Shown: piece by piece, positions 12,009 through 41,934 of the stretch
Position numbering within the stretch: the first letter of the stretch is position 1
Layout: each line of letters opens with the position of its first letter
Source of the DNA: Cyathus striatus
Taxonomy: Eukaryota; Basidiomycota; Agaricomycetes; Agaricales; Nidulariaceae
Direction of reading: 5' to 3'
DNA: 64,000 bases
Assembly (NCBI GenBank): GCA_025738555.1
Contig: JAOVFP010000017.1
Location: forward strand, 806,001-870,000
Program-made: the position numbers and the translations under genes
The notes under the pieces: generated by a model
The model's input: only the letters and a program-made list of their open reading frames with translations
The model's database searches: none
What the model was told of the DNA's origin: nothing

Positions 12009-13535
<1,527 letters not shown>

Positions 13536-13537
13536 TC

Positions 13538-13555
13538 TGGAGCCCACCGCGAGGG
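13538..13555 (+). other. putative primer-binding site
   Basis: TGGAGCCCACCGCGAGGG begins two bases after the 5' LTR and starts with TGG, the complement of a tRNA CCA end. I cannot say which tRNA would match. A comparison with the host tRNA set would decide this. Confidence 0.45.
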
Positions 13556-13744
13556 GGTGAGGGTTCAAATTAGTTTTGGAATATTCAAACGGATAGACAG
13601 ACGGCGAGAAACCGAGAACAGATTAAAAGACAAAAATAGATTTTTGACACTTGACATCGATCTGACAGACTTGACAGTGTGGCGAGCTCGAATAAATTCA
13701 AAGCACGAACGACGCGCACATCACAGAAAGCAGGGACAGAATGA

Positions 13745-15430
13745 CAGCTTACCCCGCCTTGGAAACGAAGGGCAGATAGATTAAATCAGCCAACTTTAGA
13801 GGAAAATAATAACACGGGATCTAGTCAAGTGATATCAGTAACTGAGCCCGTAGATTTGAACGCGCGGAGTTTAGTTGAACAAAATGAGACGACCCTGAAC
13901 GTACCAGGCGCTTTCTCTGGTCCATCAGACTCTGATTCCGAAGTCGAAGATCAATTATTGAGTGACTTGTATCACTTGAGAATACATAGTGACGAAAATC
14001 TGGCAGAAGAATTACCAATGAGTGAGCTAGAAACAGTAAGAGAAATTGAAATACCACAGCATAGTCCTAGCCCCTCAGTAGTAGCACCAAAGCCTGTAGA
14101 AATAATGACGAGCACATTGCCATCACCTACCAGTAGGGATAGTCCAAAGTGGGATGGAGTGGCAAATAACCTAAAACAATGGTTGAGACAACTAAAGATT
14201 TTGTACATTCACCATGGAGAAACAAACAGTAAAAGGAAAATTCAGCATGCACTAGGGTGTATTATGGACTGTGATTTGGCAGATGAAGTAGAAGCTTTCA
14301 CAGAATCTAAAGAGGATGATTGGGAAAAATTTAGGAAGAGATTGCTAATGGAATATGATCCAGAGGGAGGAGAAAAGCATGGGTCTGTAGAAAATTTAGA
14401 GAAAATCGTGGCGACCTACCGGCCAATTCCTGTAGGTGAATACAGAGAATGGAAAAAATTCAAACAGGAGTTCAATGAAGAAGCAGATAGATGTAAAAGT
14501 TCCAAAAATGGGGCTTTAATATCTAACCGTTCTTTAGTGGGACTACTAAGTGAAGTGTTCCATAATTCACTAAGGGAAAAAGTTGATACACAACTTACTA
14601 TGGTAGATATGATGAATACCAATGCTGCAACAGAGAGACCTAGGGAAGATCCATATAAATTAGAGGAAGTGGTGAAAGCTGTAGACAAAATAATGAGTTT
14701 AAGTCCATTGGGAGGTTCTGCACTTATGCAAGCACCTGCTAGGGAAACTAAAAACATAAGTAAGCAAGAGGTGATGGATAGTTCAATTGCAGCAGAGACA
14801 AGGCTGGCAACAGCACAAATGACAAAGGAATGGGACTCTGTGAAGAAAGAGATTAAAGAACTATTACAGAGTCTGCAGATGACTCAGAATGTGCAACAGA
14901 CTCCTCAACAGTACCGACCTACACCTCCAAATAATTGGCAACAGCCAACAGCTTATCAGTTCCGAGAACCACCAGCACAAAGTGGAGGATATGGGGGGTA
15001 TAATGGAAATAATATCCGAACAAACTGTTGGTACTGTGGGAATTGTCCTGAGCGCATGATGAATTGCAGAGTACGGGCTAAAGATATTCAGGATGGAGTG
15101 GTTCGTGAAGGTCCAAGTGGTCGATTAGTCATGGGAAGCAGTGGAATGTATATTCCACGAGTTGAAGGCCAGCCAATGAGAAGAGAAATTGAGCGCCTAC
15201 TAAAAGAATCAGAAGTGAGTTCTACAGGAGTGGATAAGGGTAAAGCCCCTGCAGTAATGATGCAGAGGACACCAATAGAAGGAGAACCACCTTTGCAGTT
15301 GATACAGGAGTTGCAGCGATATACTGGGTGGATCAGGGCACAGAATTTGGCTAGTCCTACTCAGGCATCTACAAGTCAGTTGCTACAAAATAGGACAGGC
15401 AAGGAGACTACACCAGAACCGGATTTTTAA
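13745..15430 (+). CDS. gag polyprotein of the Ty3 element
   Basis: The frame is open from 13745 with no ATG near its beginning; a GTG lies at 13829 and the first in-frame ATGs are further in, so the start is uncertain. The capsid-like region (WDGVANNLKQWLRQLKILY, then IQHALGCIMDCDLADEVEAF and KFRKRLLMEYDPEG) resembles gag of Agaricomycete Ty3 elements. Near 15025-15065 is a cysteine cluster (CWYCGNCPERMMNC) in the place of the usual CCHC zinc knuckle, but the histidine position is glutamate. The frame ends with TAA at 15428-15430, directly after a G-GAT-TTT heptamer, and continues in the -1 frame as protease. Confidence 0.8.
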   Translation, partial: QLTPPWKRRADRLNQPTLEENNNTGSSQVISVTEPVDLNARSLVEQNETTLNVPGAFSGPSDSDSEVEDQLLSDLYHLRIHSDENLAEELPMSELETVREIEIPQHSPSPSVVAPKPVEIMTSTLPSPTSRDSPKWDGVANNLKQWLRQLKILYIHHGETNSKRKIQHALGCIMDCDLADEVEAFTESKEDDWEKFRKRLLMEYDPEGGEKHGSVENLEKIVATYRPIPVGEYREWKKFKQEFNEEADRCKSSKNGALISNRSLVGLLSEVFHNSLREKVDTQLTMVDMMNTNAATERPREDPYKLEEVVKAVDKIMSLSPLGGSALMQAPARETKNISKQEVMDSSIAAETRLATAQMTKEWDSVKKEIKELLQSLQMTQNVQQTPQQYRPTPPNNWQQPTAYQFREPPAQSGGYGGYNGNNIRTNCWYCGNCPERMMNCRVRAKDIQDGVVREGPSGRLVMGSSGMYIPRVEGQPMRREIERLLKESEVSSTGVDKGKAPAVMMQRTPIEGEPPLQLIQELQRYTGWIRAQNLASPTQASTSQLLQNRTGKETTPEPDF

Positions 15431-16638
15431 CAAGTCCGAGGAAGGAGTGGCGCCGTCTAAAGGAAACGGCTCCTACACCAGTGGTTGCTGGCACTCCTGA
15501 GGACGAAGTAAGACCAATATATACCAAGCAGGTTGATGTACCCAAGGATACCCATGTAGAGAAAGAGACTGTTAGTACGAATGATATAGTTTCAGGAGAT
15601 AAGAATGAAATACAAAATAGGAAAATTGAAAAAGAACTGAAAAATACAGATAAGATAGACAAAGACAAAAATATTTCTATTTCTTTACCTTTCCCAGAAC
15701 ACCCTTTTAGAGATGTACCACCTGTGCAAATGGCTCCAGGCCATTTAGCTGTAACATTAGACGAAATAGAGAGAAGAGTAACTAAGAATGTAGCACCAAT
15801 TGAGAATGGGGTAGATGCAGGAGTAGTGCTTGATAAAATGTTGGAAGCACCTGTCACATTGTCACAGCATGAGTTATTAGCACTAGCACCAGTACTTAGA
15901 GCTGATCTACAAGGACGTTTAGTGACAAAGCGAACAATAATGGGAAGAGAAAATCAGCAGATAAAAAAGGTACACTTTGAAAAACCAAGCAAAGCTGTAC
16001 CAGTACCAAAGCAGGCTGAAGAGCACTTGATGATGCAGGACTTAGCACCAGCAAAGAAGGAGCGAAAAGAGTGGACAAACAAGGAAACTGGCCAGAAGAG
16101 AAAAGTTTGGTGGGTAAGTGATCCTGTTAGTTTATATCTTGAGAGTCTTCCAAAGCATAAGCGTGAAGAGCAAGTTCTGGATTATGAGGCAAGAGAGTCA
16201 GAACCCTTAAGGTGTATTAGGGGATTAGTAAATGGAACCAAGGAACAGGAAGCACTTCTTGATAGTGGCTCACAGATAATTTCTATGAGTAAAAAGAAGG
16301 CAGTGGAATGTGGTGTTAGTTGGGATCCAAGTATTAAGATAAAAATACAAAGTGCAAATGGAGGTTATGAAGCATCACTAGGACTAGCACGCAATGTACC
16401 TTTTAAAATAAACTCAATTACTGTACTTTTACAAATACACATTCTAACTGACCCACCTTATGAATTGTTACTTGGAAGGCCATTTGATGCATTAACTGAA
16501 AGTCAGTACAATAATGAGCATGATGGAGGTCTTTTTGTTATTATAAAAGATCCACAGACAGATCAGAAAATTGTCTTATCCACATATGAGCAGGGACAGA
16601 CACCTATAGGACAAGAAGACAGCCAAAATTTTCATTAA
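15394..16638 (+). CDS. gag-pro linker and aspartic protease
   Basis: This frame is -1 relative to gag and overlaps it from 15394. After a Lys/Glu-rich linker it holds a retropepsin-like domain: the catalytic DSGS motif (codons at about 16260-16272, in EALLDSGSQIISMS) and the second conserved block YELLLGRPF near 16460. The protease would dimerise and cut the polyprotein. There is no good ATG of its own at the start; entry by -1 frameshifting from gag is the simplest reading. It ends with TAA at 16636-16638, one codon after an A-AAT-TTT heptamer. Confidence 0.75.
   Translation, partial: DRQGDYTRTGFLTSPRKEWRRLKETAPTPVVAGTPEDEVRPIYTKQVDVPKDTHVEKETVSTNDIVSGDKNEIQNRKIEKELKNTDKIDKDKNISISLPFPEHPFRDVPPVQMAPGHLAVTLDEIERRVTKNVAPIENGVDAGVVLDKMLEAPVTLSQHELLALAPVLRADLQGRLVTKRTIMGRENQQIKKVHFEKPSKAVPVPKQAEEHLMMQDLAPAKKERKEWTNKETGQKRKVWWVSDPVSLYLESLPKHKREEQVLDYEARESEPLRCIRGLVNGTKEQEALLDSGSQIISMSKKKAVECGVSWDPSIKIKIQSANGGYEASLGLARNVPFKINSITVLLQIHILTDPPYELLLGRPFDALTESQYNNEHDGGLFVIIKDPQTDQKIVLSTYEQGQTPIGQEDSQNFH
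15421..15427 (+). promoter_or_regulatory. candidate -1 frameshift site, gag to protease
   Basis: In gag frame the sequence reads ccG GAT TTT TAA. The heptamer G-GAT-TTT is the type used for -1 shifting by dianthoviruses, and the stop follows immediately. A -1 slip enters the protease frame. A one-base loss in the T run would look the same. Confidence 0.45.
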
Positions 16639-19600
16639 TCGATGATTTGGTCAAAGACCAAGGAGAGCTAGCATTAGTATATACATATGAGAAATCAGGG
16701 ATGGTTACATTGAATGGATATTATACACCAGAAAACAAGAAGAAATTTAAAGGAGATGAATTGAAGTGTGCATTCCTAGTTGAACAAGCACGAGATGGTC
16801 TGATGGAAAATAAAAAAATGGAAAGTTTCTTTATGAGTTTGTTACCAGATGACTTAGCTACAAAGGCACAAACAGAGTCAGTATATACACAGGAGGAGTC
16901 TGACTTAAAGGACACCTGAGATTGTTTTGCTGGTAAAAAGTATAAGCCAGTAGCACTAAAAGTGAGACCTGTGTTGACAGAGTTACCAAAGGAGTTTTAC
17001 ATAAAAAGAAAGATATTAGGTGATCCTTTGAAAGGAATGCCTGAGTTACCTACAAATCCACCAGAATGGATACCAAGAAAGAGATATACCCAAGAACATA
17101 TGGAAGCAATGGACAAAGCACATAAGGAGGATTTCTTGCAGCCTGAAGAACGGAAACTGATGCATCATATGATCGGAGAACAGGAGGAAGCTTTTGCATG
17201 GAATGACACACAAAGAGGAACATTTAAAGAGGAATTCTTTCCTCCTGTAAAAATTCCCACTGTGCCACATGTTCCATGGGTAATAAAGAATATTCCTATT
17301 CCACCAGCACTGAATGAGGAAGTCTGTAACATAATCAGGTCAAAGATTGAGAGTGGAGTATATGAACCTTCAAATGCTTCATATAGATCCAAGTGGTTTT
17401 GTGTAATAAAGAAAGATGGTAAAAATCTGCGGTTAGTACATAGTCTGGAACCGCTGAACAAGGTAACAATCGCTCACTCAGGTTTACCACCTGCTACTGA
17501 GGAGTTGGCCAATCATTTTGCAGGAAGGGCATGTGGAGGAATTCTTGACCTATATGTAGGGTATGATGAAAGATCGCTAGCTGAAATGTCAAGAGACCTA
17601 ACTACATTTCAGACACCATTTGGGGCATTGCGATTAGTCACTTTACCAATGGGCTGGACCAACTCTGTACCTATATTCCATGATGACATTACATTTATAT
17701 TGCAAGATGAAGTACCTGAATACACAATGCCATACATTGATGATTGTCCAATCCGTGGACCAGCAACTAGATATGAATTACCAGAAGGTGGATATGAAAC
17801 TATCCCAGAGAATAAAGGCATTAGACAATTTGTATGGGAGCATATGCAGAATGTAAACAGGATATTACAGCGAATGAAATATAGTGGTGGAACCTTTTCT
17901 GGCAAGAAGTCAATTATTTGTGCTGATGAGTTTGAGTTGGTAGGTTATAAGTGTTCATATGAAGGATGGAGGCCAACAGCTAAGGCAATCGATTCAGTAC
18001 TTACATGGGTAAAATGTGAAAATCATAGTCAAGTTAGATCCTTCCTTGGAACAGTTGTACAAGCTAGACATCACATACCTAAGTTTGTTGACTTAGCGGC
18101 ACCATTGTATAATATGTTGTGTAAAAACATGCCATTTAGATGGGAATATGCAGAACAGAAGTCAATGGATGTCTTGAAAGAAGCAGTAAAGAATAACTTA
18201 CCAATTCGAAACCCTGATTACAAGAGTAAACAGCCATTGGTATTAGCAGTAGACACATCCTACATAGCAGCTGGCTGGGTGATATACCAAAGAGATGAGA
18301 TTGATCCATCAAAGATTCATTATGTAAAATTTGGATCTAAGTCATTAACAGAAAGACAATCTAGATATTCACAACCAAAGCGGGAGCTATTAGGACTGCG
18401 AATGGTACTTGAGGAGGAACAGTATTTGCTATTTGGTTGTAGAAATTTAGTAGTAGAAACAGATGCAAAGTATCTATCAGGAATGTTAGATAATGCAGGT
18501 AAAATGCCTAATGCAACAATTAATCACTGGGTAGATTTTATACGCACCAATTTCTTCTTCACATTAGTACATAAGGCTGGTAAAACTTTTGGACCAGATG
18601 GATTGTCTAGACGACCTCCTGCACCTACTGATCCAACAAACTGGAAATTTAATGATGAGTCTGATGATGATGACAAACCTTACCCCATGGAAAAATTGAG
18701 CCCAATGGACCCAGATCCACTACCTCTGGGAGACTTTATAGTGGATATTGATACTAGGACAGGTTTTATGATGGCTGAGGTACCCAGCGACATCACAGAT
18801 GAGTTAGTAGAAGCCAGGGAGAGTTGGGAACGTGAGTGGGAAATCAAACAGAGAATAATGGCAGATCCAGCATGTCCTGAAGAAAAACGAGCTTTCCTTA
18901 GTCAATTTATAAATATTGCTATAGTACCTGAGAAAACGACTTACTGGGCACCATATCCAGAAGAACATCGAACAACATTGGCTAAAGACAGAGACAAACT
19001 AATTGAATTAGTTAAGGACTGGTTAAAAGATACATCAGTACCACCTGAGGAAATGAATGATAAGGAGTGGAAGAACTTTAAGAAATTTGCAAGGCATTAT
19101 TTTCTAGATGATGGGAAATTATACTTGCATGACTTAGAAGGCGAACACAAATTATATGTTGAAAAACCTTACAGGATGTATATGATGCAAGCTTCACATG
19201 ATGCCCTGGGACACAGAGGTGCTTATGCAACCAGTCAATTAATATTAAATCGATTTTGGTGGCCTCAAGTTGAACAAGATGTTGAGTGGTATGTCCGAAC
19301 TTGTGATGAATGTCAGAAGCGTCAAAGGGCACTTTTTGAGACCCCTCCAGTATTGACCGAGACTCCTTCAGTGTTTCAAACACTACATGCTGATACTATG
19401 AATATGGCAGGAGAAGTTTCAAAAGGCTGTAAATATATTGTCCATGGACGATGTGCATTATCATCTTGGCCAGAAGCATGAGCTTTAACAAAAGAAAATG
19501 CTGGTACTATAGGTCAATGGTTATTTGAAGATGTAATATGCCGTTGGGGATGTATACAGAAAATTGTAACTGATAATGGTACACCTTTTAAGAAAGCGCT

Positions 19601-20513
19601 TAAATGGTTGGAAGACAAGTACCATATAACTACAATTACAATTTCACCATATAATTCACGGGCTAATGGAATCATTGAACGACCTCATTGGGACATAAGA
19701 CAAATGCTAATGAAAGCTTCAGCACCTGACTTTAAGAAATGGTATTACTTCCTGCACCATGTACTATGGGCAGATCGAATAACTGTGAGAAAACAAATGG
19801 GATGTTCACCTTATTTCATGGTGACAGGAGCACATCCAGTCATGCCTTTAGATCTAAAGGAAGCAACATGGTTAGTTAACCCACCATCAGGTATAATCCC
19901 AACTGCAGAGTTAATTGGTCTGTGTGCGAAAGCATTAGCAAAACATACATACCATGTTGAGGAAATGCGAGCAAGATTGACTGAAGATAAGATTAAGCAA
20001 TTAGAAAATTTAGAAAAAACCATTGAGCATAAAGTCAAAGAATGGGTCTTTAACCAAGGTGATCTAGTTTTGATGAGAAGTCCACAGATTGGTAAATTAT
20101 CAAATCAAAAGAATAAATACCGATATAATGGACCTTATGTAGTAATTGCACGAGTGGCAGGTGGAAGTTATGTTTTAGCAGAACTGAATGGGGCTACATT
20201 ACATAAGAAAGTGGCCAGAGTCAGAGTAGTACCATACTATGCGCAAGAACACATTGATTTACCTGACAATCTACAAGATATCATAGACTTATCAGAAGAT
20301 GGGTTAAAAGAATTACTAAGTGAAGCTGAGCCTGAAGATAGTATGTGTAACGATATAGAGGATTTAATATTCTCTAAAGTACGACTCAATTCAACAAAGG
20401 ATGATAGTATCAATGAGATAACAGCAATTGATGAACCAGATGAACACAATTCAGATCAAGAGGAAGAAGAAACTGGGATTCAATTGCCACATAGGTACAA
20501 TTTTAGAAAGTGA
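16590..20513 (+). pseudogene. pol: reverse transcriptase, RNase H, integrase, with two TGA stops
   Basis: Frame is -1 relative to protease. Reverse transcriptase shows PFGALRLVTLPMGWTNSVPIF and the catalytic YIDD (about 17733). RNase H shows LAVDTSYIAAGW through FGPDGLSRR. Integrase has an HHCC finger (H..H..CDEC, about 19200-19320) and the acidic triad (HADTMNM, TDNG, IIERPH). No chromodomain is evident at the end. In-frame TGA occurs at 16917-16919 and at 19480-19482; the second is at a position that is arginine in related elements as I recall them. The catalytic residues are otherwise present, so decay seems limited. The final acidic tail ends at 20513. Confidence 0.88.
16626..16632 (+). 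promoter_or_regulatory. candidate -1 frameshift site, protease to pol
   Basis: In the protease frame the sequence reads cA AAT TTT CAT TAA. A-AAT-TTT fits the canonical X-XXY-YYZ slippery pattern and a -1 slip gives the pol frame (..K-F-S-L-I-D). The stop lies one codon downstream. An indel in the A/T run is the alternative. Confidence 0.5.
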
Positions 20514-20690
20514 AAGTAATTGAATAGCGAACAATGATGTAATAGAAGGCAATTTAAACTAATACATTGCATCGCTATCTAAAGACAAACAATGGTAAAT
20601 AATGAATGACAGGTAACGTATGATGGGAAAAAGGAATGACAGCTATTGATATCAAAGATGAGCAGGGTAATGGAAAAGGAGAAAAGTAAC

Positions 20691-21174
20691 TCACTGGTAG
20701 AGTAGCGGGATAGTTAACCTGTAACTTGAGTTAGTCATAAAGAAAAAGAATTAAGAAAAAGAAACGCTTACACATCCAAGGGAACCAATCCTCTTTGAGC
20801 CATAGCCACTGAGTCCACAAGGAAGGAAGTGAGGGTCGGTGGAAGATGCGTGCCTTTTCAATGAGGAGCCACCCCATGTGCTCACCATTCAAGAGAATGG
20901 TGTATTGCTGATACTCAACGCCTGCTTGACCCTTTGGTGAGTAGGTCATGGGAGAGCCTGTGTCTTTGAGAGACAGCACTTGCTCATTAGGGAGTGTCAC
21001 AGTGGGAGTTGGCTCTTCCAGCAGATCCTCTGGACCATCCACAATGAAAGTAGGATAGCGTTTTTCAGACTCTAAACGTGCAAGCCGGTCAGGTTCTGGG
21101 TTGACAAGGGAAAGTTGGAAAGCAGTGGAGATGAGTGACTTGGTAATGACTGGACTAGATGAGGGTGAAGACAT
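20691..21174 (-). CDS. antisense gene H in the retrotransposon, unknown
   Basis: An open frame from ATG at 21174 (MSSPSSSPVITKSLISTAFQ) encodes about 137 residues before a donor near 20770. It probably joins an exon starting after TTACAG near 20715 and ends at about 20691; an alternative acceptor would give a longer tail. The protein is acidic in the middle (VDGPEDLLEEPTPTVTLPNE) and Trp-rich near the end (LWTQWLWLKEDWFPWM). I recognise no family. It lies tail to tail with pol on the opposite strand and is the most distal of the four antisense genes. Composition and the absence of stops make it plausible. Confidence 0.5.
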
Positions 21175-21359
21175 GATGAGAATAATGAAAAAAGATGCAG
21201 GATGAAAAATAAGTGAAGTCTGAGAAGTTACGATAAAGAACTGGAAGTGAGAAAGTACAGCATGTGATCACACTTTAAGGCAAGTAAAAAAGGGCAAACA
21301 AGTGCACAAATAATGATAAATAGTTATTTGACTATATATGGTAAAGATAATATGATGAG

Positions 21360-22003
21360 CTAAAAGTATGGTATGGAATCATTCAGTTGGGAATCGTCAT
21401 TTGGGTCAGATAACCAAGGCGATAGTGCTTCACTTTCGCTAACTGTTAAAAAAAAAAAAAAAAAAGAAATTATTTAATTAGATTAGCATAAGAAAATGAG
21501 GATATATGAAAGAAAAGAGGGGACTTACAGTAGGAATTGCGGAAAAACAACTGCCAGGCACTGGGTTGGCGCCATGGGAATTGCTTGCGATAGCGGGAAT
21601 TACCCTGTAAAACCCATAATGAACCAATGAAAGACTGGTTCCAGTAAATACAAAACTCGGTCCACACTGCATTGTTCTTTGACAGTAGCAAACTGCCACT
21701 AGGGTAGAAGAACAATTCGCCCCCCTTGCAGATGGATGTTTGACTGGAGTAATGAAAAAGAAATGAGGAATCTTCGGTTCAGAATGAGAGACGAGGAAGA
21801 ACATGTGGTAATGCAATCTCATTGGGGAGGAATACACGGACTGGAGTCTTCAAGTAATATGATAAGATGTCGGTGAGAGAGCGAGGGTAACAAACGACAG
21901 AGGAGAACATGGTGGGACAAACGAAAAGGAAAGGCAGGATGAAGTGCAAGAACTCAGAGCAGTGTTTAAATAACAGGGAACTTAGTCTGACATCGGCAGC
22001 CAT
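21360..22003 (-). pseudogene. antisense gene I in the retrotransposon, one TGA
   Basis: A two-exon gene: exon 1 22003-21529 and exon 2 21442-21360, separated by an intron with a 19-A tract on the plus strand. The frame opens MAADVRLSSLLFKHCSEFLH with a hydrophobic stretch. It continues in a single frame to an aromatic block (WTEFCIYWNQSFIGSLWVLQ) and an acidic tail (SESEALSPWLSDPNDDSQ). One TGA interrupts it near 21776, where CGA would give arginine; this matches the TGA pattern in pol. An alternative intron could skip it. No family recognised. A later ATG at 21910 could also be the start. Confidence 0.45.
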
Positions 22004-22432
22004 CAAGAACCCTGAGTTGGTTCAGATCATATCTAATGTATTAGGCAGACCCTTATTATTTGGTCTAAAGAAATTTAGACTATGCTATTACTAAAAATGG
22101 GTGCTAATCACATTATGTAATACCCAAGGGAATGAATATCCATATCAAATATAGTTGGAAGACCCTTATCAACAGATTAACGGGCATTTAGACTATGTTG
22201 TCAAGGGGCGAGCATTGATAAACTGGCTACTGATGATTAATAATAAAATAATGGTAATTGCATTGGATATAGAAGGCAATGATAAGTTACAAGTGCAGTA
22301 GGATATAACTAATCTACTGAGTAAGTGTAACCAAGAACCTCTACATCATCAATGTATCAGTTACCCAGGACTGGGACTCTATAGATAAGGTCATGAGTAT
22401 GAGAATAGAAAAATATGCATAGAAAAACATAC

Positions 22433-23951
22433 CTACATAGCACTGGAAGACAAGGAAAGGCGCTCCAAGTCAGCATAGGCACTCTTAGCAGCAAGGACTT
22501 GTTGCTCTACATTCGAAACGGCCTCCAATAAATGGGCAGACCGTTGAATAATGACAGCATCATGATAGCTGATTGTTTGAGCTGGCTGCTCAGGGTAGCG
22601 GCGTCCCTCAATGGTAGCCAAGACATTCAAGGCCCATTTCCGAAGGTCTGGAAAGTCTATACAAAGTATTAAAATAAGTAAAGGACATAAAAATAAAATA
22701 AAAAGGATGAAATATGAATACACACAAGGAAAAAGTAGCTCCAAACGAGCTTTCTTGCGGCCAGACAACTGCACAAACATTAGATAAGCTGGGCTGGTTT
22801 TGTCCAATTTAGGTAGTGCCTCGTAGGGCAGACATACCGTCTCGGGACGAGCTACAGCAGTTTTTCCCTATAATAAAAAGAAGAGAATGAGAAACAGACT
22901 TAGAAAAATGTTATAAAATAAGCGCACTTTGTCAATAGTATGCGAGCCATCATTAGAATCGTCAATAAGCATTGACATATCGAGGTGGGGCTATAATATC
23001 ATAATAAAAACTTGGTACAAGAAAAGAGGATGTAATCAAGGTACTTACCTCGGCACCCTCCCCATCAATAATAGTGGTAATTGATGCGCTGCCTTTGCTA
23101 GCTAAAAACTCTTCATCCGATTCGCTAAGGATGACATTGGCAGACTTGTGAGAACAAGTGGTAGGCTGGGTAAATAAAAATAAAATGAAAAGGGGAGTGA
23201 GCAAACGAAACAAAAATAAACATAAAAAAGAGAAAGAATTACGACATACACGGGAGCATTTAGCAGACATGACAACTTCAACAATTGGAGCTTTGCTGTT
23301 ACGAACACGCTGAACGTTGGTACACATCAGGCAAACACTGTTGTAATAGGGAACGGGCAGCACGAATTGTTTGTTGGATTTTTGCTCAAATATATGATAA
23401 AGTTTACGAAAGGAAAACATTAATTCAGTAAAATCGGTTTCACTGAAGACCTCAGGGTGTGTATCATGGAAGGCCAGGATACGAGCCTATGAACAAATGT
23501 AATCAGTTATGAGACAGGTATAAAATAAAAATAAAAACAGATAATAATGACATACGAGCTCGATGTGCAGAGGATCAAGAGTCAGGGCTTTATAATCAAG
23601 CCCATCGTTCAAAATCCGAATAAAGGACCCAATTTGGTCACGAAGACTGCGGCAGGAGCCTAAGAATACGAGATGACTAGAATAAGTTTCAGTGGAAGAC
23701 ATAGCTCGTGAACAAATATTCTGAGACATACCTCTACTATTATCTCCAGTTAAATACTTTTTCAGACTCTGAGTTACATCTGCTATCAGTACGAGATAGG
23801 ACAACAGTTGAGATGTAGAATTGATGGTATACAACACAGGGTACCATAAGGATAAATTCATTTTATGGGGGCACAGGCACGGACAACAAGTACAGCCACA
23901 TGCATTATCAGAAAAGCCAAATTTTATTGAACTATATCCCCTTCCACCCAT
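22433..23951 (-). CDS. antisense gene G in the retrotransposon, seven exons, unknown
   Basis: Seven exons (23951-23732, 23659-23556, 23486-23250, 23165-23049, 22990-22928, 22867-22726, 22656-22433) have GT..AG borders, AT-rich introns of about 60-90 bases and phases that add up without a stop to 368 residues. The N-terminus has a dense cysteine group (CGCTCCPCLC, residues about 18-27). The middle has another cysteine pair (VCLMC) and acidic stretches (LSESDEEFL, MLIDDSNDG). The end is helical (LEAVSNVEQQVLAAKSAYADLERL). No known domain is evident. An intact multi-exon gene antisense to an LTR element is unexpected, since introns could not survive a cycle through sense genomic RNA unless they are carried as antisense DNA, which is the case here. 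Confidence 0.65.
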
Positions 23952-24161
23952 TCAATACAATTCCCCTTCAACCGAGGGTGGTTGATATCTATGGGTTGGG
24001 GAGAGGGAAATAGCCTAGGGCTATGAAGAATTTTATTCTTTTAGAACAAGTTTTAAGGGAAGCCAAAGAAATGCTTATTGCACATCTTATTTGAACAAAT
24101 GTATCATAGGAATAAGCAGTGAAAAATATGTAACAAAATATGTAATAAACTAGATAACTGT

Positions 24162-25016
24162 TTAGCCTGAAGACGGCATACGTCTGCATCCTGAACCACG
24201 AGTAGCATGACGGCCACAAATAGACAAAGCACAATGAGAGGTGCGTGACGAACAAAGACCTGTGGCATCAAGAGGAGGTGCGAGGTTGTAATCAGACACC
24301 GTCTCAAAATAACCGGGAGGGACTTGGGTACCACTAAGCCCAAACCCCTCCTGAGCAGACAAAATAGCAGGGGAGACACCGATAGCTTGAATATCAGATG
24401 TAGTGGCAGCAATAAAAAACTCTTCGAGGATCAAGAGTGTCGAAGGGGTCATTACACCTTGACGGACAGTGTCGGCGAGAGTGAACATCCGAGTTAGGTC
24501 ACCAGCACTAACACCTTCAGCGACAAGACCACAAGAACGGAGTCTGGTGATACCGCCGAGTTGCCGAAAAGCTTCTCGAAATGCGTGCACAAGGTCGAGG
24601 AGGTAGAATGTATATTTTGCAAGCTGAAGGTTGCCAAGTACGGTAAATAGCTGTAGCGAGCACTGAGCTTCAGCTACTATGAGTAATCGTTGAGCGATAA
24701 CTAAGAGGAATAAAAGAAAAACAAGAAATTAGAAAATAAAGAAAAATAAAAATAAAAATGGGTACTCACTTTGACCTAGAATGTCGGTCTGAGGGTGAGG
24801 ATAAACCGGTACTCGCACATTAGAGGGATCATCTAGGGTGAAGTCACATTGAAACGAATCCGGGAGGCGAGAGCATGTAATACACGGTTCTCCAACAATA
24901 TTCGGGTGGACAATACATGGCCTATCATTGCGGACACAGCGGTTGCATTGGCGAGCGCTGCAAGCGGGACGAGCATCGAGTTTGAGGAGCTCCTGAATGG
25001 TATAACGAACATCCAT
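24162..25016 (-). CDS. antisense gene F: Zn(II)2Cys6-type cysteine cluster protein
   Basis: Two exons (25016-24770 and 24700-24162) join in phase to 261 residues. Near the N-terminus, residues 24-57, the cysteines follow C-x2-C-x6-C-x10-C-x2-C-x8-C (CNRCVRNDRPC, then EPCITC and FQC). This is the spacing of the fungal GAL4-type binuclear zinc cluster, with basic residues between the first three. The rest is largely helical (IIAQRLLIVAEAQCSLQLF, LVHAFREAFRQLGG) and Ser-rich at the end. If it folds as such it could bind DNA; the target is unknown. It lies about 470 bases from the 3' LTR and is transcribed away from it, so the LTR may serve as its promoter. The frame has no stops, unlike pol. Confidence 0.7.
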
Positions 25017-25476
25017 GACAGTTGACCTAGAAAATAAAATAAGGAAGGTCATAATGACCACTCAAAGGAAGATTCAACAATGACACTTATGAGGCAAAAA
25101 GGGAATAAAATTGAATTGGGGGAAGTGATAGAAATGAGGCAAAGTTTCGATATCACAGACTACCAACTTATGAGATAATAAAGAACAAGGTTCGATAAGA
25201 TTAACTGGCAACGCTTACCTAGGCGAGCACCACCACGCCGTCAAGTTACACTGCCCAGTTATGATATTCGAGAAAATGGCGGTGCACCAAATAACGAATC
25301 CCAAACGGAGACAGACTGAGTATTTGGGAGCCATTAATCACGGAAATAACACCTAGAGTTGACTATAATTCTCTGGGACAGATGCAGGGGTCAGGTCGAG
25401 ACAAGCACAGAATTATCACGAACCGCTAGTTGCACTAGAAATTAAAACTTCAACTGAGGACAGTCGTTTATTCGTT

Positions 25477-25485
25477 GGGGGGAGA
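25477..25485 (+). other. polypurine tract before the 3' LTR
   Basis: GGGGGGAGA lies immediately upstream of the TGATATGG that opens the 3' LTR, the position where plus-strand DNA synthesis is primed in LTR elements. Confidence 0.75.
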
Positions 25486-25778
25486 TGATATGGAGACTTT
25501 TAATTTGATAAGAGAACAGTTCAGTCAGAGATTACAAATCCAGTCAGAATAGCACGTACCTCGATGATCTTGGGCTTGAGAGCTGGAGTTAAGTCCCGCG
25601 CTGCCAGCTAAAAATATGTAAATACATATCTATCAAGGGAATAAAGCATCAATACAATATTATAAAGATCAGAAGAGGATACGAAGTATATAACTGACTA
25701 AGGACAAGTAATACTAGTACTGGAAGGATTCCTTTGTATAAATAATAACTACATCTCTTGCAAGACAGCGAAAGGCGG

Positions 25779-27134
25779 TGTCAGTTTAAGATAATAGATA
25801 TCTAAGGTGGTCAGCAGGAAGTGACTTTGTTCGTGCTTAGCACCTGAGTGTTGGGGGATATTATTTGTAGATATTCTCCTTAACTCAAGAGGTTTGGTGA
25901 TGATCACAGGTGTATATTTAAGTGTAGAGGTGGGTAGGTAAGTTTAGAAGAGTAGGCGAATAGCAAGCACAACAACTAGGATTGTGGCAAGGGCTTGCAG
26001 GTGAAGGGTAGGCTGAAGATATAGGTCACTATTATGTTGAAGGTTGAAGCGGAGCTGAGGTCCCTGATGGTTTCTGCTTCTTACTTCACAACTAGGGCGC
26101 ATATATAATTTACAAGGTTACGGTGTCTCACTATCTGAGTGGACACAGATACAATGCTGCTGCTGCTGCTGCTGCTACTGTTACTTTACGAAGATATGGT
26201 GCCTCACTATCTGAGTGGACACAAATACAATGCTGCTGCTGCTGTTACTTTACGAAGATACGGTGCCTTACTATCTGAGTAGGCACAAATAATACAAATT
26301 AGTTTCACACTTTACTGTTGACACTTTATATGTGACTCTGACAATACATGTACTGGGTAGAGAGGAAGTATATAGGTTATATTTAGTAGGTAAGGGTTGT
26401 GTGCTACAACTGCAAAGGGATACAAACAAATGTAAACTAGGTATAAGTTGTTAATTCTACAGGCCAATTCCTCTTCCTTATATGCCTTTTACCCTCCTGC
26501 TGACTAATCATATCCCACACCTACTTTCCCATTGTTCTCCAACTGGGGAAGGTATGAGTCATCCTTTTCTCCATTGTTCTCCAATTTAGGATGCATGAGT
26601 CAGCATCTTAGACAATGGGTATATTTAGCACAATAGAAATGCTATTAATAGTACTTGAAAGAACAATGGGTATATTTAGCACAATGGTTGTGCTATTAAT
26701 AGCTCTTGAGAACAATGGTGCTCTTTTGTTTGTACCTGAAGGCTTTCTTATTTTGTACAGGGTATAATTGTTTGTACATATTAGTCTTGGTGTAGTTGTT
26801 GTATGATGATATTTATTCTGATTAGTGCTGGTCCAGTAGTATGACTAAGTATTTGTGTATGTTTATCTTGATTAATAATGAGCTGGTATTGTAGTTACTT
26901 GTTTGTGTATAATTGTTCTGATTGGTGATGGACTATTAGTGTTTATGTAGCTTTATTTGTTAGTGTATTGATTAGTTACTTGTGTATGGTTTTCCTGATT
27001 AATAGTGAAATAGAAGTGCATATTAAGTGTTGTTTGTTAAGGTATTATTAAGTTTTCTAAGTGTTTGCTTTTCTATCTTTGAGTGATTTAGCTGTATTCA
27101 TGTCATTATGTGAAATCAACTTTCACCCGTGACA
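25779..27134. mobile_element. solo-LTR-like insertion, 1356 bp
   Basis: The insert starts TGTCA and ends TGACA (inverted ends) and is flanked by a 4-base duplication GCGG (25775-25778, 27135-27138) of sequence single in the other LTR. It has no coding frames, which suits a solo LTR left after recombination. It contains CTG runs and short tandem repeats. Its family is not otherwise seen in the window. Confidence 0.75.
26105..26295. repeat. tandem repeats with CTG runs
   Basis: A unit of roughly 80 bases containing GGTG(C/T)CT.ACTATCTGAGT and ACAATGCTGCTGCTGCTG is repeated about two and a half times inside the solo-LTR-like insert. Two further imperfect direct repeats (around ACAATGGGTATATTTAGCAC) follow at about 26615-26700. 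Confidence 0.7.
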
Positions 27135-27889
27135 GCGGGCACTGATGCGAGGTTAGAACTAGAGACAATAGCAAGGTGGTGATACTGTACCGACTAGCGA
27201 GCATCTATAGATAGAGGAATCAACTGGGACAATATTAGTTTATGATTAATGAAAGGGCGCACATGCGCATGGAGATAACGCATATCATCAGCGCGGGAAC
27301 TGAGCGCTCGGCGCAGTTCACTGGGAATAGTCATACGCGCCTCGTGCAGTATTGCGCGTGGAACACATCAGTGGGGACCTGGTATCTACGCATGCTAGAG
27401 TCACGGCTTGTCGCGGGTTATTGAATAAGACAGGCACAGGTTGGATTTTGATATTGTATAATAAATGCATATGTAGTTTATCTAAAATAGATAAGATATG
27501 TACGTTACAGTTTGATTGTGTCGCATAGTTATCATATATATAAGTCTCGATGTAGGAAGAGAAAAAGTAAGTACCGCACGACAGCAGTATTTCCGTTCCC
27601 CACAGACAGGGTAGCGCTACAGACAGACCAGACAACGGTTGTGATTAGATAACGAGATAATCGAGTACGCGAAGTGTATGCAAGCATTTTGAGATAGAAA
27701 CTGTCCACTGTCCGTTTACTTACACAGAATATATCATATAAATTTGAACTGTTTACACCCTCGACCTTTAAAAAGACTATTGCGAGTAACTCAGATAGTA
27801 TTGATAAGAATAGTAATCATAAACATATATTGTGTAGTAGTACTATTACTAACAAATTACCTGTATACACGAAGTAGCATCATCATCCT

Positions 27890-35490: not shown

Positions 35491-38028
35491 CTACGTTACT
35501 ACATGGCACTTTTTGATCATATCGGCTGCCTAGAAAAATATCTTAATAACATATCTGAAGGAACAAATCGAGATTCACCTTCTCTCCAATAGCATAGACA
35601 GTCGAAGACTACACATAACAAATGGTAAATCAGTACTTGCTTCTACGAAGGCTGAAACAATCACTAACTTACCAAATGGGCACTAAGAGGCATCGGAATT
35701 ATCGAAGCATCCACAACCCTCAGATTCTGTACTCCGTACACCCGCAATTGCGTGTCCACCACACCTCCAAGTTCCGGAGGCATCATGCTCAACGTTCCAG
35801 TTTCGTGATTATCGCTTCCAACCACACCCCTAGCCCACGTTTCCGCGTCCACATTCTCACCTGGTTCGAATTCGCCCTGGTAGACACTGTCCAATGGAGG
35901 GCTTTGAAGCATCGTTCTACCTAGCTCGATACCTGCCACGTGAGATGCGGAGTCAAGTGGATGTGACCAATACGCGGGGTCAACAGCTGGGGCACTAAGG
36001 GGTGAAGATGTGACGATGTGCGAGCGTCCACGGGACAGAGGTGCATATAGTACTGCATTGATCGTGGAAAAATTCCGTTGGGGGCGGGAGGATAGTGGTG
36101 TCGGACCCGAATATCCTGGCTCTATAGTGTACAATGAATCAGCTGGATTCATAATACGGCTCCTAAAAATCTCACCGAAGTTCATTTCCAATACGCCTTC
36201 AGTATTACACTTATACATATCAATCATGACTTTGTGTTGTTCCTCAATCCCTTTTGCGAGGTCAGCATTACCATTTGAAAATAGATTGGCGTAATATGTC
36301 AAGTTATTCTCCGCTTCAGTTACCAATGACGCCATCGATAAAGGAGAAAATATGTGAGAAGGCGGTACAATCCCAAGAGTACGTGGGGCGGCAGAAAGAA
36401 GACCTATGACACAAAACAGTTAAGGAGTTAGATGTAACAGATATAAAGATTACTGACCCGTGCGATTGCTGTTCCATAGTGCAAGTTGCTCAGCCATGAA
36501 ATCTGGATTGACATTGAGAATATCTTTCGTCATCCTGTACATATATTAGATTACAATAACAGGTTGCACCACAGAATACTAACGTTATGTTGGTGAAAGC
36601 ATTAGTCCAACTATGGACATGGTCTATCGCTCACGTTAGTTTGTCCGTAGGCGGGTGAAATAGAAGTTTGATGACCTGCAAGATTTTCCCCCACAGTAGC
36701 CAATTCCAAAACGGGCGTAATCCCTGCAGCCCGAAGGATGCTGATGATAAGTATTAGTAAGCATTCAACCATGTAGTGAAGGGAAGCAAAAATCAAAACT
36801 CAAACAATACGTACGTTGCGTTGCCTACTCCACTCAATTCCAGAACCTTAGGCGACCCGATAGTTCCGGCAGAAAGAATAACCTCCTTGTTCACGTCTGC
36901 AACATCGGTTTGATTATTCATAATATACTCGACACCAATAGCTTTGAGAGGCGATGACCCAGCATCCCAAATGATGCGAGTTACAGTTGCACCTGTAAGG
37001 ACTTCGAAATTTGGTTGCGAAGCGAACGGGGTATAATAGGCGCAAGCAGCTGAGCATCTGTCCATTCAACATCAGACAGCTAGTATTGAGTTGAATTGAT
37101 AAAGATCCCTAACAAACCTTGTGTTGTTCGCCGCGTCTAATGAATTCGGGGATACACCAGCGCTTCCTGCCGGATCTCCATCCGCCAAATCACCAGATTC
37201 TGTCAATCCCGAAGCTTGCGTCCACATTTGGGATTGAGGGAAGAAATAATTTGGAAATCCGACTTTTATTCTTCCCGTATTCGTGTCAAAGCCATGATTC
37301 TGAGGCTCGTATTTTGCTCCGTTTGCGACTTGGAATTCGTTGGGTGGAGTAAAGATTTCGGATCGCTTGAAGAAAGGAAGGAGGGAGGACCATGACCATG
37401 AGTCGTCGTTGTTCAGTTGACCCCAGGTATCGTACTGGGCCTTGATCGCACGGGGCTATATTCAAGTATTATTAGGAGATCGATTCATGAAATTCGGCTC
37501 TGAAAATGCGTACGAATATCATGCTATTTGCTATACGAGTGTTCGTTTATCAGTTTGGGTAGTAAGTGACGAAGCAGTGTGATACACATACTGATAGTGC
37601 TCCCGCCTAGTGCCTTACCCGCGTTAATAGTCACCGCTCTGTTGTTTAGATTCGTCTGCGGCACTGTACGATATGCCCAGTTGAGCGTTGTGCGAGCCTG
37701 GCCAGTCCCAATTAACCCAGGGACATATACCTGTAAATTATTAGTCGAGACTCCCAAAAGCTAGTTGATATCGATTATGTATACCTCAGGAAGATTCTCA
37801 GCGTTAGGGCCAGCTTCCAGTACGGCGACGGTAACTGTTTTGTCTTCAGCTAGCCGACTGGCGACGGTGAGCCCTCTATGCAACTCATATTTCAGAAACT
37901 CGCGAGGGCAACGAGAAAGTAAGACATGCGTACCCTGTGCCACCACCAATGACTACATAGTCGTAGGATTTCCCTTCACTGAGAACGACTAAAGTCACTA
38001 AGAGCGGGATGGAAGTGCGTAAAATCAT
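35491..38028 (-). CDS. secreted GMC oxidoreductase (AA3_2-like), copy 2
   Basis: A gene of about twelve exons reads through without a stop to roughly 600 residues. It starts MILRTSIPLLVTLVVLSEG, a signal peptide, followed by the FAD Rossmann motif VVIGGGTGGLTVASRL (split by an intron), the EAGPNAENLPE acidic block, GGSTI..SMIF..RAIKAQYDTWG, and the second GMC signature SAGTIGSPKVLELSGVG. The C-terminal domain has both catalytic-type histidines (DNHETGTLSMMP and VVDASIIPMPLSAHL). Members such as aryl-alcohol oxidase or glucose dehydrogenase oxidise alcohols or sugars outside the cell and feed hydrogen peroxide or quinone cycles in wood or litter decay; the substrate cannot be told. It ends AADMIKKCHVVT at 35491. 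It lies in tandem with copy 1, which shares its exon borders. Confidence 0.9.
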
Positions 38029-38649
38029 TGGAGGTTTAATTTTGACTTACAAGCTTCAGTACTTATATAACACACAGATGTTTACCTACATTTTGAAACG
38101 TAGGGTCGTTGACGCGAGAGTTCAACCACCTTGACAGATGTTGTCGTTTACTTTTCGGTTGAGCAAAGTTCGCCCGAATTGAGACTTCAGCCAATAATAA
38201 AGTTTATTTTGTCTTATTTGCACCTCACGTGCTCACTTGACCATGTATGTATATCATATATGAAATGAGGCTCCTATCCCGGACCCTAAAACCATCTTCT
38301 CATATCGAGAAATCTCCTGAAATCTCCTATGTTTATGTCTCATATTTTTATTTGTCCCAAATAATATTCCACTTTTTCCTCCTATTATTTTATAGGAGGA
38401 TAGTTCGTGTGCCTGATTCGGAATCAGAATGGAGAAGGGTTGAATGCTTTCAGTATCTTCAGTTTCTTAAACAAGTCCTGAACCTCCCCAGTCTTCACCG
38501 TATAATGTAGCACAAAATAATGTCTAACCGTTTTCATTCTCCAGGTTACCTGAAGGTTACTTTAAAATCGAATGGAATTCAAATAGACATTGATAGTTGT
38601 GTAGTATTTACTATTTAGATTAAGAATGTAAATGGGGCACATAATAGCT
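38029..38649. other. spacer between tandem GMC genes
   Basis: No gene. It should hold the promoter of copy 2 (minus strand). A small hairpin (CCTCCTATT..ATAGGAGG near 38380-38402) is present. Confidence 0.45.
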
Positions 38650-41152
38650 CTACATCGCACCTTTAATCATATCGGCAGCCTAAACAAAGCGATTGATATC
38701 AGTAATCATAAGATATCGCAAAAAATAGCATGGTACATACCTTCTCTCCAATAGCATAGATAGTCGATGACTAAATATATAAATCAGAACCTTGCCCACT
38801 TGAATTAACAGATAACATACCAAATGGGAACTAATGGGCACCGGAATTATCGAAGCATCCACAACCCTCAAGTTCTGTATTCCATACACGCGCAACTGCG
38901 TGTCCACGACACCTCCAAGTTCCTGAGGCATCATGCCCAATGTTCCTGTTTCGTGGTTATCGCTTGCAACTACTCCCCTTAACCAAGTCTCCGAGTCAAC
39001 GCCTACGCCGGGCTCGAATTCGCCTTGGTAGATAGTATCCAATGGAGAAATATTAAGTGTCTTTCTTCCAAGATTGATACCTGCAACTTGAGACGCAGTA
39101 TCAAGCGGATGGGACCAGTAAGCTGGGTCGACGGCAGGTGCACTGAGTGGAGAAGAGCTGACGATATGCGTATGTCCACGGGATAATGGAGCATAAAGCA
39201 CTACATTGATCGTAGAAAAATTACGTTGGGGACGAGAGGCAAACAGTGTAGGACCCGAGTATCCTGGTTCTATGGTTAAAAACGTATCAGTCATGCTCTC
39301 CTGTTTATGTTTTCAAAGATGAATCTCACCGAAGTTCATTTCTAATACTCCTTCGGTATTTTGCTTATACAGATCCAGCACAGCTTTATGCTGTTCTATG
39401 ATGCCAATCGCAAGGTCAGAATTTCCGTTTGAGAATAGATTGGCGTAGTAAGTCAAGTTGTTCTCCGCCTGAGAGATCAATGATCCGAACGATGCAGGAT
39501 TGAAGATATGAGAAGGCGGTACGATCCCAAGCGTTCGAGGGGCGGCAGAAAGGAGACCTGTCACGAGATAATTATGAAAAAGAAGAAAAAGGCGAATCTT
39601 ACTTACCAGTACGATTAGTATTCCATAGTGCAAGCTGTGCAGCCATGAAATTCGGGTTGAGCAGTAGAGAGTCTTTCGTTAACCTATATTTGTATGTTTA
39701 CTAGATTGTAAGTCACAGAAAAGTACACTAACGTGATGTTGGTGAAGGCATTTGTCCAGCTGTGAACATGATCTGTCGCCGATGTTAAATTTGCCTTCGG
39801 GTATTCCAAGGATATAGAACCGTACCTGCGAGATTTTCCCCGACAGTCGACAGATTCAAAACAGGTGTTATCCCGGCTGCCTGAAGGATACTGTTGATAA
39901 CAATCAGTGTAAGCACGGGCACGTAACTGAAACTCAAAAGCATACGTTGCATTACCAACGCCGCTCAATTCCAAAATCTTGGGCGACCCGATGGTCCCGG
40001 CAGAAAGAATAACTTCTTTGGTCACGTTCGCAACAGCGGTCTGATTATTGATGATATACTCGACGCCAGTTGCTTTGAGAGGCGTCGAACCGGAATCCCA
40101 AATGATGCGTGTGACAACTGCACCCGTGAGCACGTCAAAATTCGGTTGAGAAGCAAATGGTGTGTAGTAGGCGCAGGCAGCGGAGCATCTGCACATTCCA
40201 CATTGCGATATCAGTAAGCCAACATCGCGTTCGGAGTGATAAAGATCCCAAACAGACCTAGTGTTATTCATCGCGTCCAACGAGTCCGGGAAACACCAGC
40301 ATTTCCTGCCGGATCACCATCAGCCAAGTCGCCGGATAACGCCAACCCCGAAGCATTCCTCCACAATTGAGACTGGATAAAGAAGTAATTAGGAAATCCA
40401 ACCTTTACTCGACCTGTTGCATTATCAAAGCCGTGAACATCAGGCTCGTACTGTGCTCCACTTGCAACCTGATATGGGTTCGGTGGAGTAAAAACCTCGG
40501 AACGCTGGAAGAATGGAAGGAGGGAAGACCAAGACCACGAAGAGTCATTATTCAGTCGACCCCAGGTATCATACTGAGCTTTTATCGCGCGAGGCTGTAC
40601 GAGTATATTAGGCAACTGATTCATGAAATTCGGAACTGAAAATACGTACGAATATCATGCTATTAACTTCAGGTATATTACAATTCAGTTCAACTAGCGG
40701 TGATTAATGAGTTCTATACTTACTGATTGTGCTCCCGCCGAGAGCCTTGCCAGCGTTTACGGTCAACACCCTGTTGTTTAAATTCTTCTGCGGTACGGTA
40801 TGATACGCCCAATTGAGTGTTGTAAACGATTGCCCTGTTCCTATTAGACCAGGGATATAGACCTGAAAGCTATTAGAGAGAAGCGTCGAAAGTGGATGTC
40901 GAAGATAGGTACTTCAGGAAGGTTTTCTGCATTCGGACCAGCTTCTAGGACGGCCACTGTAACTGATGCATCTTCGGCAAGACGACTTGCCACGGTGAGC
41001 CCTCTATACGATTCATGGTTAAGATGAATCCTGAGGGCAAAAAAACGATATGCGGACCCTGTTCCACCACCAATGACTACATAATTATAGGATTTCCCTT
41101 CACTGAGAACAATGAGAGTCGCTAAGAGAGATAAGTAGGTACGTGGAACCAT
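38650..41152 (-). pseudogene. secreted GMC oxidoreductase, copy 1, one-base frameshift
   Basis: Start at 41152 (MVPRTYLSLLATLIVLSEG, signal peptide), then the same exon pattern and motifs as copy 2: FAD loop, EAGPNAENLPE, SMIF..PRAIKAQYDTWG, SAGTIGSPKILELSGVG, DNHETGTLGMMP, VVDASIIPVPISSHL, ending AADMIKGAM at 38650. In the exon near 40285 this copy reads TCCCGG where copy 2 has TCCCCG, one C fewer, so the frame shifts and meets a TGA within a few codons. After that point the sequence continues in a good frame to the end. It is a very young pseudogene, or a miscalled base in an otherwise intact gene. All other exons are open. Confidence 0.85.
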
Positions 41153-41934
41153 CGCAAGCTGAATCCAACATACAAATTATCAGCTATTTTATAGCCAGGA
41201 TATGGTTACAAACATCTTGTGAAACGGAACGGGCGTTGACGGAAAGGGATAGGGCGGCGTTCAGAAATGCAACCCACTAGCATTTAAATTACAAACGTAT
41301 GAGAATTGATATAGATAAGTGCGGGTTATGCTATACGAGGATACGGAGCATACCTGGTACATGTGTGTTGGGCTGTGTGTTGGGCTCACAATTCCACCAA
41401 AGGAGCTACCGGCTCCTCGCAAGCTAGAAAGCGAATGAAACCAGCATGATGACCAAGATGTGGCAGAGATTTATACCACCATCAGCAATGCGTTCCCCCA
41501 CAATTACTGAAGGGAAGTAACTGAATGGACGATAGCCAAGCGCAACCCTAGAGACACCGACAAATGCAGATTAAAATACCACAGGAGACTGTCACTGAAG
41601 GGCCCATCCATAAGTGCTGAATAGTATAGAAGCTTGCATAGAATAGTCTCTGAGGTACTTTTTTGGAAAATTTCAGAAAAAAGCCTAGGAGAGTTGGAAG
41701 TAGAAATATGTTTTCAGGGAAGAAAAGAGGAATAGATGGCAAGACTCAAGAGGGCCGATTTCAGAGCAATCAGAGAATCGGAACCAGCAGTGGCGATCGG
41801 CACGTGAAGCCGTCGAAGCCGTCATTTTCCGATGTGCTTACATAAGTCTTCCCTTATGTAAGTTCAGAGATTGATCATACCATTGCCGAAGTTCAAGTGC
41901 CCAAAGGTGCCTAGATACTACGGCTTTATAGGTA
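41153..41934. other. intergenic, nothing recognised
   Basis: It holds the promoter side of the GMC copy 1 gene and no supported coding frame. A TIR element follows at 41935. Confidence 0.4.

Follow-up and report, generated by a model that had tools for sequence, protein, structure and literature searches.

Antisense genes between pol and the 3′ LTR

The stretch of Cyathus striatus DNA analysed here (the window; 64,000 nucleotides of contig JAOVFP010000017.1, positions 806,001 to 870,000) harbours a Ty3-type long terminal repeat (LTR) retrotransposon on the plus strand (12452-27885), and between the end of its pol (20513) and the start of its 3′ LTR (25486) four genes follow one another on the minus strand, here termed F, G, I and H. 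All four had been proposed in an initial annotation of the DNA and are present, with I broken in the window copy. Gene F (24162..25016, minus strand) has two exons (25016-24770 and 24700-24162) and encodes 261 aa, exactly as first described, whereas G (22433..23702, minus strand), initially read as seven exons and 368 residues, is composed of six coding exons (23702-23556, 23486-23250, 23165-23049, 22990-22928, 22867-22726 and 22656-22433) that encode 309 aa from the ATG at 23702. Upstream of this ATG, the frame runs without a stop over 83 codons in the window, but over only 1 and 9 codons in two further copies of the element, C7 and the diverged C3, respectively, and the similarity of C3 to G begins exactly at 23702; a longer G is thus unsupported. 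By eye, G likely has an additional intron in its 3′ untranslated region (UTR; TAG followed by GTATGT). Gene I (21360..21910, minus strand) was assigned two exons by homology with C7; its window copy has an in-frame TGA at codon 44, and the frame is open for 154 aa in C7 and 141 aa in C3. Gene H (20714..21174, minus strand; exons 21174-20772 and 20718-20714) encodes 135 aa. Ab initio exon chaining was wrong for G and I, and was replaced by homology-guided models set by hand.

Matches to TATA-like motifs precede two of the genes on the minus strand, TATTTA before G (23751..23756) and TATTTAAA before I (21965..21972), and on the strength of the motif both may act as promoters. The distance from motif to ATG is 54 bases in C7 and 55 in C3 for G, with a TATAAA at 61 bases in the copy C5, and 62 bases in C7 and C3 alike for I. 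No such motif lies within 200 bases of the start of F in C7 or C5; for H, no motif of this kind is nearer than 148 bases. An uncertain candidate intron in the 5′ UTR of F (25027..25218, minus strand; TAG/GTAAGC ... CTAG/GTCAACTGTCATG) was recognized by eye, as was a donor-like site, GAG/GTACGT, near 25560 inside the LTR.

Comparison of C7 with C3, which is without most of F, was used to assess the proposed frames of G, H and I in all six frames. In each case the proposed frame alone is stop-free in both copies, and the share of codon differences that change the amino acid is lowest in that frame (G, 0.48; H, 0.61; I, 0.43, the last over the first 381 nt of I) relative to 0.59-0.98 in the other five. 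The frames of G, H and I thereby exceed chance expectation.

The element itself is bordered by a 4-bp target duplication, TCCT (12448-12451 and 27886-27889), and its 5′ LTR (12452..13535) and 3′ LTR (25486..27885), both on the plus strand, carry TGAT...ATCA ends. These direct LTRs with TG..CA ends and short target duplications (TCCT in the window, GTTT in C7) are Ty3-type traits, as is the reverse transcriptase (RT)-RNase H-integrase order of the window pol, in which RT_RNaseH is followed by Integrase_H2C2, both above the Pfam cut-off; RVT_1 reaches 20 bits against a cut-off of 29.6. On the plus strand, a gag-like open reading frame (ORF; 13829-15430) and a protease-like ORF (15481-16638), labelled from position and by eye, precede pol (16962..20513; RT, RNase H and integrase zinc-binding regions, from ORFs and Pfam). 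Pfam matches of the gag-like ORF are all below cut-off, and a chromodomain is absent from the matches of the two window pol ORFs at E up to 1. About 515 bases spanning the gag-like end and protease-like start (15280-15793) are found in the window copy and in C3 and are missing from C7. As the window pol frame is broken after 19481 (19482-19607), this copy is probably defective; its LTR pair differs at 16 of 1042 sites, every one a transition. The C7 copy exhibits only 2 differences over 1083 LTR sites, a GTTT duplication and all four gene regions, which indicates, as judged by these LTRs, that an element bearing the block has moved recently. The 3′ LTR of the window contains a nested insert of 1356 bp (25779-27134) with TGTCA..TGACA ends and GCGG on each side, possibly a solo LTR or a small DNA transposon, within which triplet-rich repeats occur at 26106-26313.

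Copies, introns and selection

The searches covered a genome assembly of 107 Mb in 24 contigs, in which the window corresponds to C17:806001-870000. The block DNA gave 14 matches, and protein queries gave 74 (G), 35 (F), 10 (H) and 23 (I) exon matches that were merged by hand into 18, 17, 10 and 22 loci, respectively. A list of pol matches (56 pieces; 40 of 117 candidates scored) was merged into at least 38 elements. Relative to a listed pol, the genes lie antisense and no more than 10 kb to its 3′ side at 17 of 18 G, 15 of 17 F, 6 of 10 H and 10 of 22 I loci, and none of the four has a locus on the 5′ side of such a pol or in the same orientation as it; the remaining loci (1, 2, 4 and 12, respectively) are without a listed pol. 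The lone G locus of this kind (C1:7211875) adjoins DNA matching the edge of the 3′ LTR. At least one antisense gene accompanies 22 of the 38 listed pol elements. Content also varies, the window family having H-I-G-F, whereas G and F only were detected in the C5-type elements and their kin (n = 12).

G was spliced at 12 of its 17 element loci (leaving out C10, C1, C19, C4:3.19M and C4:6.08M), with splice sites set by hand in the window, C7, C3 and C5, and by an aligner guided by the C. striatus protein P0003 in L041-L048. The five G introns are kept in place and phase in all 12 copies, intron 4 by eye in two of these: the aligner returned five introns in six of the eight copies it handled and four in L044 and L045, where a 51-nt GT..AG stretch is seen at the place of the fourth. 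Boundaries vary by at most one residue among L041-L048; in the window, C7, C3 and C5, intron 3 falls within a gap-rich stretch. Exon lengths of G are equal in the window, C7 and C3, whereas the intron lengths of C3 differ, and between C7 and C3 the G introns are 61% and the exons 78% identical. P0003 itself, which is 91.5% identical to C5 G over 318 residues and known from the protein, not from the gene, is continuous across all five intron places. The F intron falls at one and the same residue in all eight copies L041-L048; extra F introns returned by the aligner (C-terminal in L044 and L045, and past residue 91 in L046) are regarded as artefacts.

The ratio of nonsynonymous to synonymous divergence (dN/dS) is well below 1 across copies, the outcome that the initial annotation had named as support for an element function, at 0.06-0.27 for G (36 of 66 pairs) and 0.12-0.28 for F (24 of 55 pairs) where dS is 0.3-3. 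These ranges leave out 30 G and 31 F pairs whose dS was saturated or fell outside 0.3-3: for G, two closer pairs (dN/dS 0.40 and 0.28), four with dS above 3 and 24 saturated; for F, five closer pairs (0.22, 0.27, 0.36, 0.50 and 2.97, the last at a dS of 0.01), two above 3 and 24 saturated. The close-pair values of F fit a decay of single copies. Between C7 and C3, dN/dS is 0.30 for H and 0.20 for I. G protein identity across the spliced set drops to ∼39% (C7 versus C5), and C7 and C3 differ by 78 amino acid changes in G, whereas 2000 neutral runs based on 104 fourfold sites gave a mean of 218 and never fewer than 195. G is free of stops and frameshifts in 8 of the 12 spliced copies. The window and C7 blocks differ at 118 sites, 101 of them transitions and 65 with a CpG in one copy; many recent differences being transitions, C-to-T change affects both dS and dN.

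Divergence is unevenly distributed along the elements. In 200-base bins, window and C3 are 92-100% identical in pol, whereas identity is 65-91% across the block and 65-90% across the gag-like ORF. The group C4:1.09M, C2:7.30M, C14:1.00M and C17:1.00M has an RT dS of 0.13-0.20 and a G dS of 0.34-1.18, whereas the window and C7 exhibit the opposite pattern (RT dS 0.22, G dS 0.04). Such mismatches in identity and dS suggest that pol and the antisense module have recombined among elements. The RT dS of C4:5.00M was discarded, the fragment being out of frame with 8 stops.

Several further features were observed among these loci. At L037:4000-4600, a G-like antisense gene of several exons lies 3′ of pol beside I and H; it resembles the last G exons with very low similarity (hmmsearch E 0.08 for one exon, the exons being read by eye) and is an uncounted lead. 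C10:3.83M and C3:6.38M (L034 and L035) have 7.4 kb in common at 98% in opposite orientation, with I broken in each, and I relics are abundant on C3 past 6.1M and on C10 at 3.1-4.03M. A tandem-repeat array is common to the two diverged loci L037 (7443-8837) and L033 (7306-8681), and in L037 lies between two pol matches. Elsewhere in the window, three direct-repeat pairs ∼3.1 kb apart at 35665-41164 (identity 77-80%) likely represent a tandem duplication.

The encoded proteins and known antisense genes

Zn2Cys6 clusters are characterized by the spacing CX2CX6C-CX2CX6-8C. F retains six cysteines of this type in 11 of 11 aligned copies (CX2CX6CX10-12CX2CX8C; in the window CX2CX6CX10CX2CX8C), a pattern that we take to resemble fungal DNA-binding zinc clusters. 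As in the fungal Zn(II)2Cys6 (Zn_clus) factors, the cysteines of F are followed by a predicted long helix, with a predicted local distance difference test (pLDDT) score mostly of 65-78, the zinc-cluster part itself lying outside the protein that was modelled; unlike them, F has no Pfam match (E up to 10). For G, an N-terminal helical domain is predicted to residue 110 (pLDDT 66-88 per ten-residue block), beyond which the model has a low-confidence middle and then C-terminal helices. Pfam searches with single antisense exons and spliced proteins gave nothing above cut-off, no family being matched by spliced F, G or H and TRP28 (PF04195) by none of the four; I matches AraC_binding (15.6 bits against a cut-off of 21.1) and DUF6502 weakly, in both cases below cut-off, and no weight is placed on this. 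In the protein database, F has two matches and G one, all from C. striatus, an agaricalean bird’s-nest fungus, among ∼8000 scored candidates each, a depth that may miss distant relatives, and H has none among 323 candidates.

Zhao et al. (2011; Virology 417:248) reportedly described Boty-like elements with an antisense gene, brtn. The presence of brtn in the Boty-like elements of Botrytis cinerea is also stated in passages of PMC7264820, PMC8365987 and PMC4227169, of which PMC7264820 lists the fungal Boty gene among antisense genes between pol and the 3′ LTR, and PMC4227169 attributes a chromodomain to the Boty-like pol. Both systems are therefore fungal LTR retrotransposons with an extra gene antisense to gag-pol; as compared by description, they differ in that the elements described here carry two to four such genes, one with five conserved introns, which appear to have recombined against pol, and in that no chromodomain was found in the window pol. 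In plants, the aORF-3R of Tat/Retand elements (Grande gene23, RIRE2, Retand; passages of PMC7264820 and PMC11963269) likewise comprises antisense ORFs between pol and the 3′ LTR, which is the arrangement found in the window. According to the same passages, however, the Retand antisense ORFs are mostly TRP28 (PF04195), whereas F, G and H are without a Pfam match; the genes here are multi-exon, whereas the word ‘intron’ is absent from the main text of both papers. HBZ of HTLV-1, one of the retroviral antisense genes, is also protein-coding, with a nuclear localisation given in part of PMC11963269, but belongs to an animal retrovirus and is likened here by description, not by sequence. Rotifer elements with extra ORFs are described in part of PMC5408684, and a survey of fungal LTR elements (PMC3248453) has passages on additional domains and does not contain the word ‘antisense’. 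In mainly open literature, no description was found of a fungal LTR element with an antisense module of several genes and several introns. Antisense accessory ORFs of the kind observed here are thus already known, so far as these passages go, in plants and in fungal Boty, and the several-gene, intron-rich and modular form is the aspect that is new to us.

Origin and possible role of the block

The common place, strand and intron positions of the genes, together with selection on their products, argue that the block is owned by the element, and is under protein-level selection across families, as opposed to being an accident of one copy. The proposal of the initial annotation, an accessory module carried along as the element transposes, agrees with the many copies and with the young C7 element that has all four gene regions. 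We consider it quite probable that the block is an old antisense module of intron-containing genes belonging to a Ty3-type lineage, with a role that is probably regulatory. Such a module would probably be trans-acting; our best guess, held only tentatively, is that F and G form a nuclear, trans-acting pair that regulates the element or counters silencing.

Mechanistically, minus-strand transcription could start at separate TATA-like promoters for G and I, and perhaps within the 3′ LTR region for F, with host splicing yielding a separate mRNA per antisense gene. Lying antisense to the genomic RNA, the introns would remain unspliced before reverse transcription and so be carried along with the element. 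F is envisaged as a Zn2Cys6-like protein that binds DNA and has a long helix, and G as its partly helical and largely disordered partner. Like the regulatory proteins of retroviruses, the two may boost transcription of the element or oppose its silencing by the host. It is a more speculative proposition, and on balance a doubtful one, that the lineage runs a whole multi-gene regulatory programme in antisense, comprising spliced host-type genes with separate promoters, products (F as a zinc-cluster-like DNA binder, G as its partner, and H and I) that would act in trans to activate the element or defeat silencing, module-deleted subfamilies living as parasites of these products, and modules shuffled against pol by recombination.

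Several observations weigh against an element-owned, selected regulatory module. Sixteen of the 38 listed pol elements exhibit none of the four genes. In three copies (C8:1.566M, C11:418k and C14:2.03M), mutually about 90-96% identical, the 4.0-4.6 kb past pol contain nothing that matches F, G, H or I (E up to 1); these copies retain short collinear remnants of the C2:7.30M block and have lost the intervals with G and nearly all of F, yet have spread, which implies that the genes are dispensable in cis or supplied in trans. G is damaged in 4 of the 12 spliced copies (two stops in L042 and one frameshift each in L041, L046 and L047), and neutral runs of G, with a mean of 5.5 stops, also reach zero. 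F has a stop or frameshift in all eight alignments of L041-L048, although in L044 the damage is located in the diverged C-terminal part, and its splice acceptor is altered in C7. Neither of two F proteins matched the Pfam zinc-cluster model (E up to 10), the structure models of F and G are weak (mean pLDDT 52 and 54), and a fold search with them returned no match below E 1. Finally, between C7 and C3 the H intron (87%), the I intron (85%) and the G-I intergenic region (87%) are more alike than the exons of H (78%) and I (82%). The block is thus itself a mosaic, the contrast between introns and exons is valid for G alone, and exchange or constraint appears to work within the block too. The subfamily L049, L050 and L051 has kept pol and spread after loss of the intervals that contain G and nearly all of F.

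The alternative that survives best, though we regard it as unlikely, is that the proteins serve a non-regulatory step, such as particle assembly, integration targeting or an envelope-like role. The block does occupy the usual site of env or accessory genes; however, F, G and H fall into no Pfam family, the AraC_binding and DUF6502 matches of I stay below cut-off, and the F cysteine pattern resembles that of fungal DNA-binding zinc clusters. Considerably less probable is the insertion of a separate mobile element into an ancestral copy, with the block now hitchhiking. A variable module content (G and F in C5-type elements, H-I-G-F in the window family) and the loss of G and nearly all of F in three copies would suit a hitchhiker, but place and orientation are constant among the element loci, selection at the protein level persists, and the window has no inverted repeat of at least 60 bases, shorter ends of a nested unit not having been searched for. 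That the antisense transcripts act as RNA, for instance as double-stranded RNA limiting copy number, with the proteins incidental, is very improbable: RNA silencing can be fed by transcripts antisense to an element, as a passage of PMC7264820 discusses for plant elements, but dN/dS, the frame test and cysteine conservation all indicate selection on protein. Least tenable is the capture of host genes by one single copy, the other option raised initially, since despite host-like introns and promoter-like motifs, and with no homologue outside Cyathus in the F, G and H searches to decide the origin, 17 of 18 G and 15 of 17 F loci occupy one and the same position and strand within elements, 24 of 66 G pairs have a saturated dS, and the only G locus that has no listed pol adjoins a 3′ LTR-edge match. 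Capture at an earlier date, before the families diverged, may underlie the block.

An element-borne, probably regulatory module remains the reading that we favour. Gag and pol are usually thought sufficient for LTR retrotransposons; this antisense module, selected across diverged families, shows that by opposite orientation elements can keep ordinary eukaryotic genes together with their introns. In annotation, such antisense element genes may pass as hypothetical host genes. For this fungus, the block supplies candidate element-encoded regulators, with natural deletion derivatives as controls.

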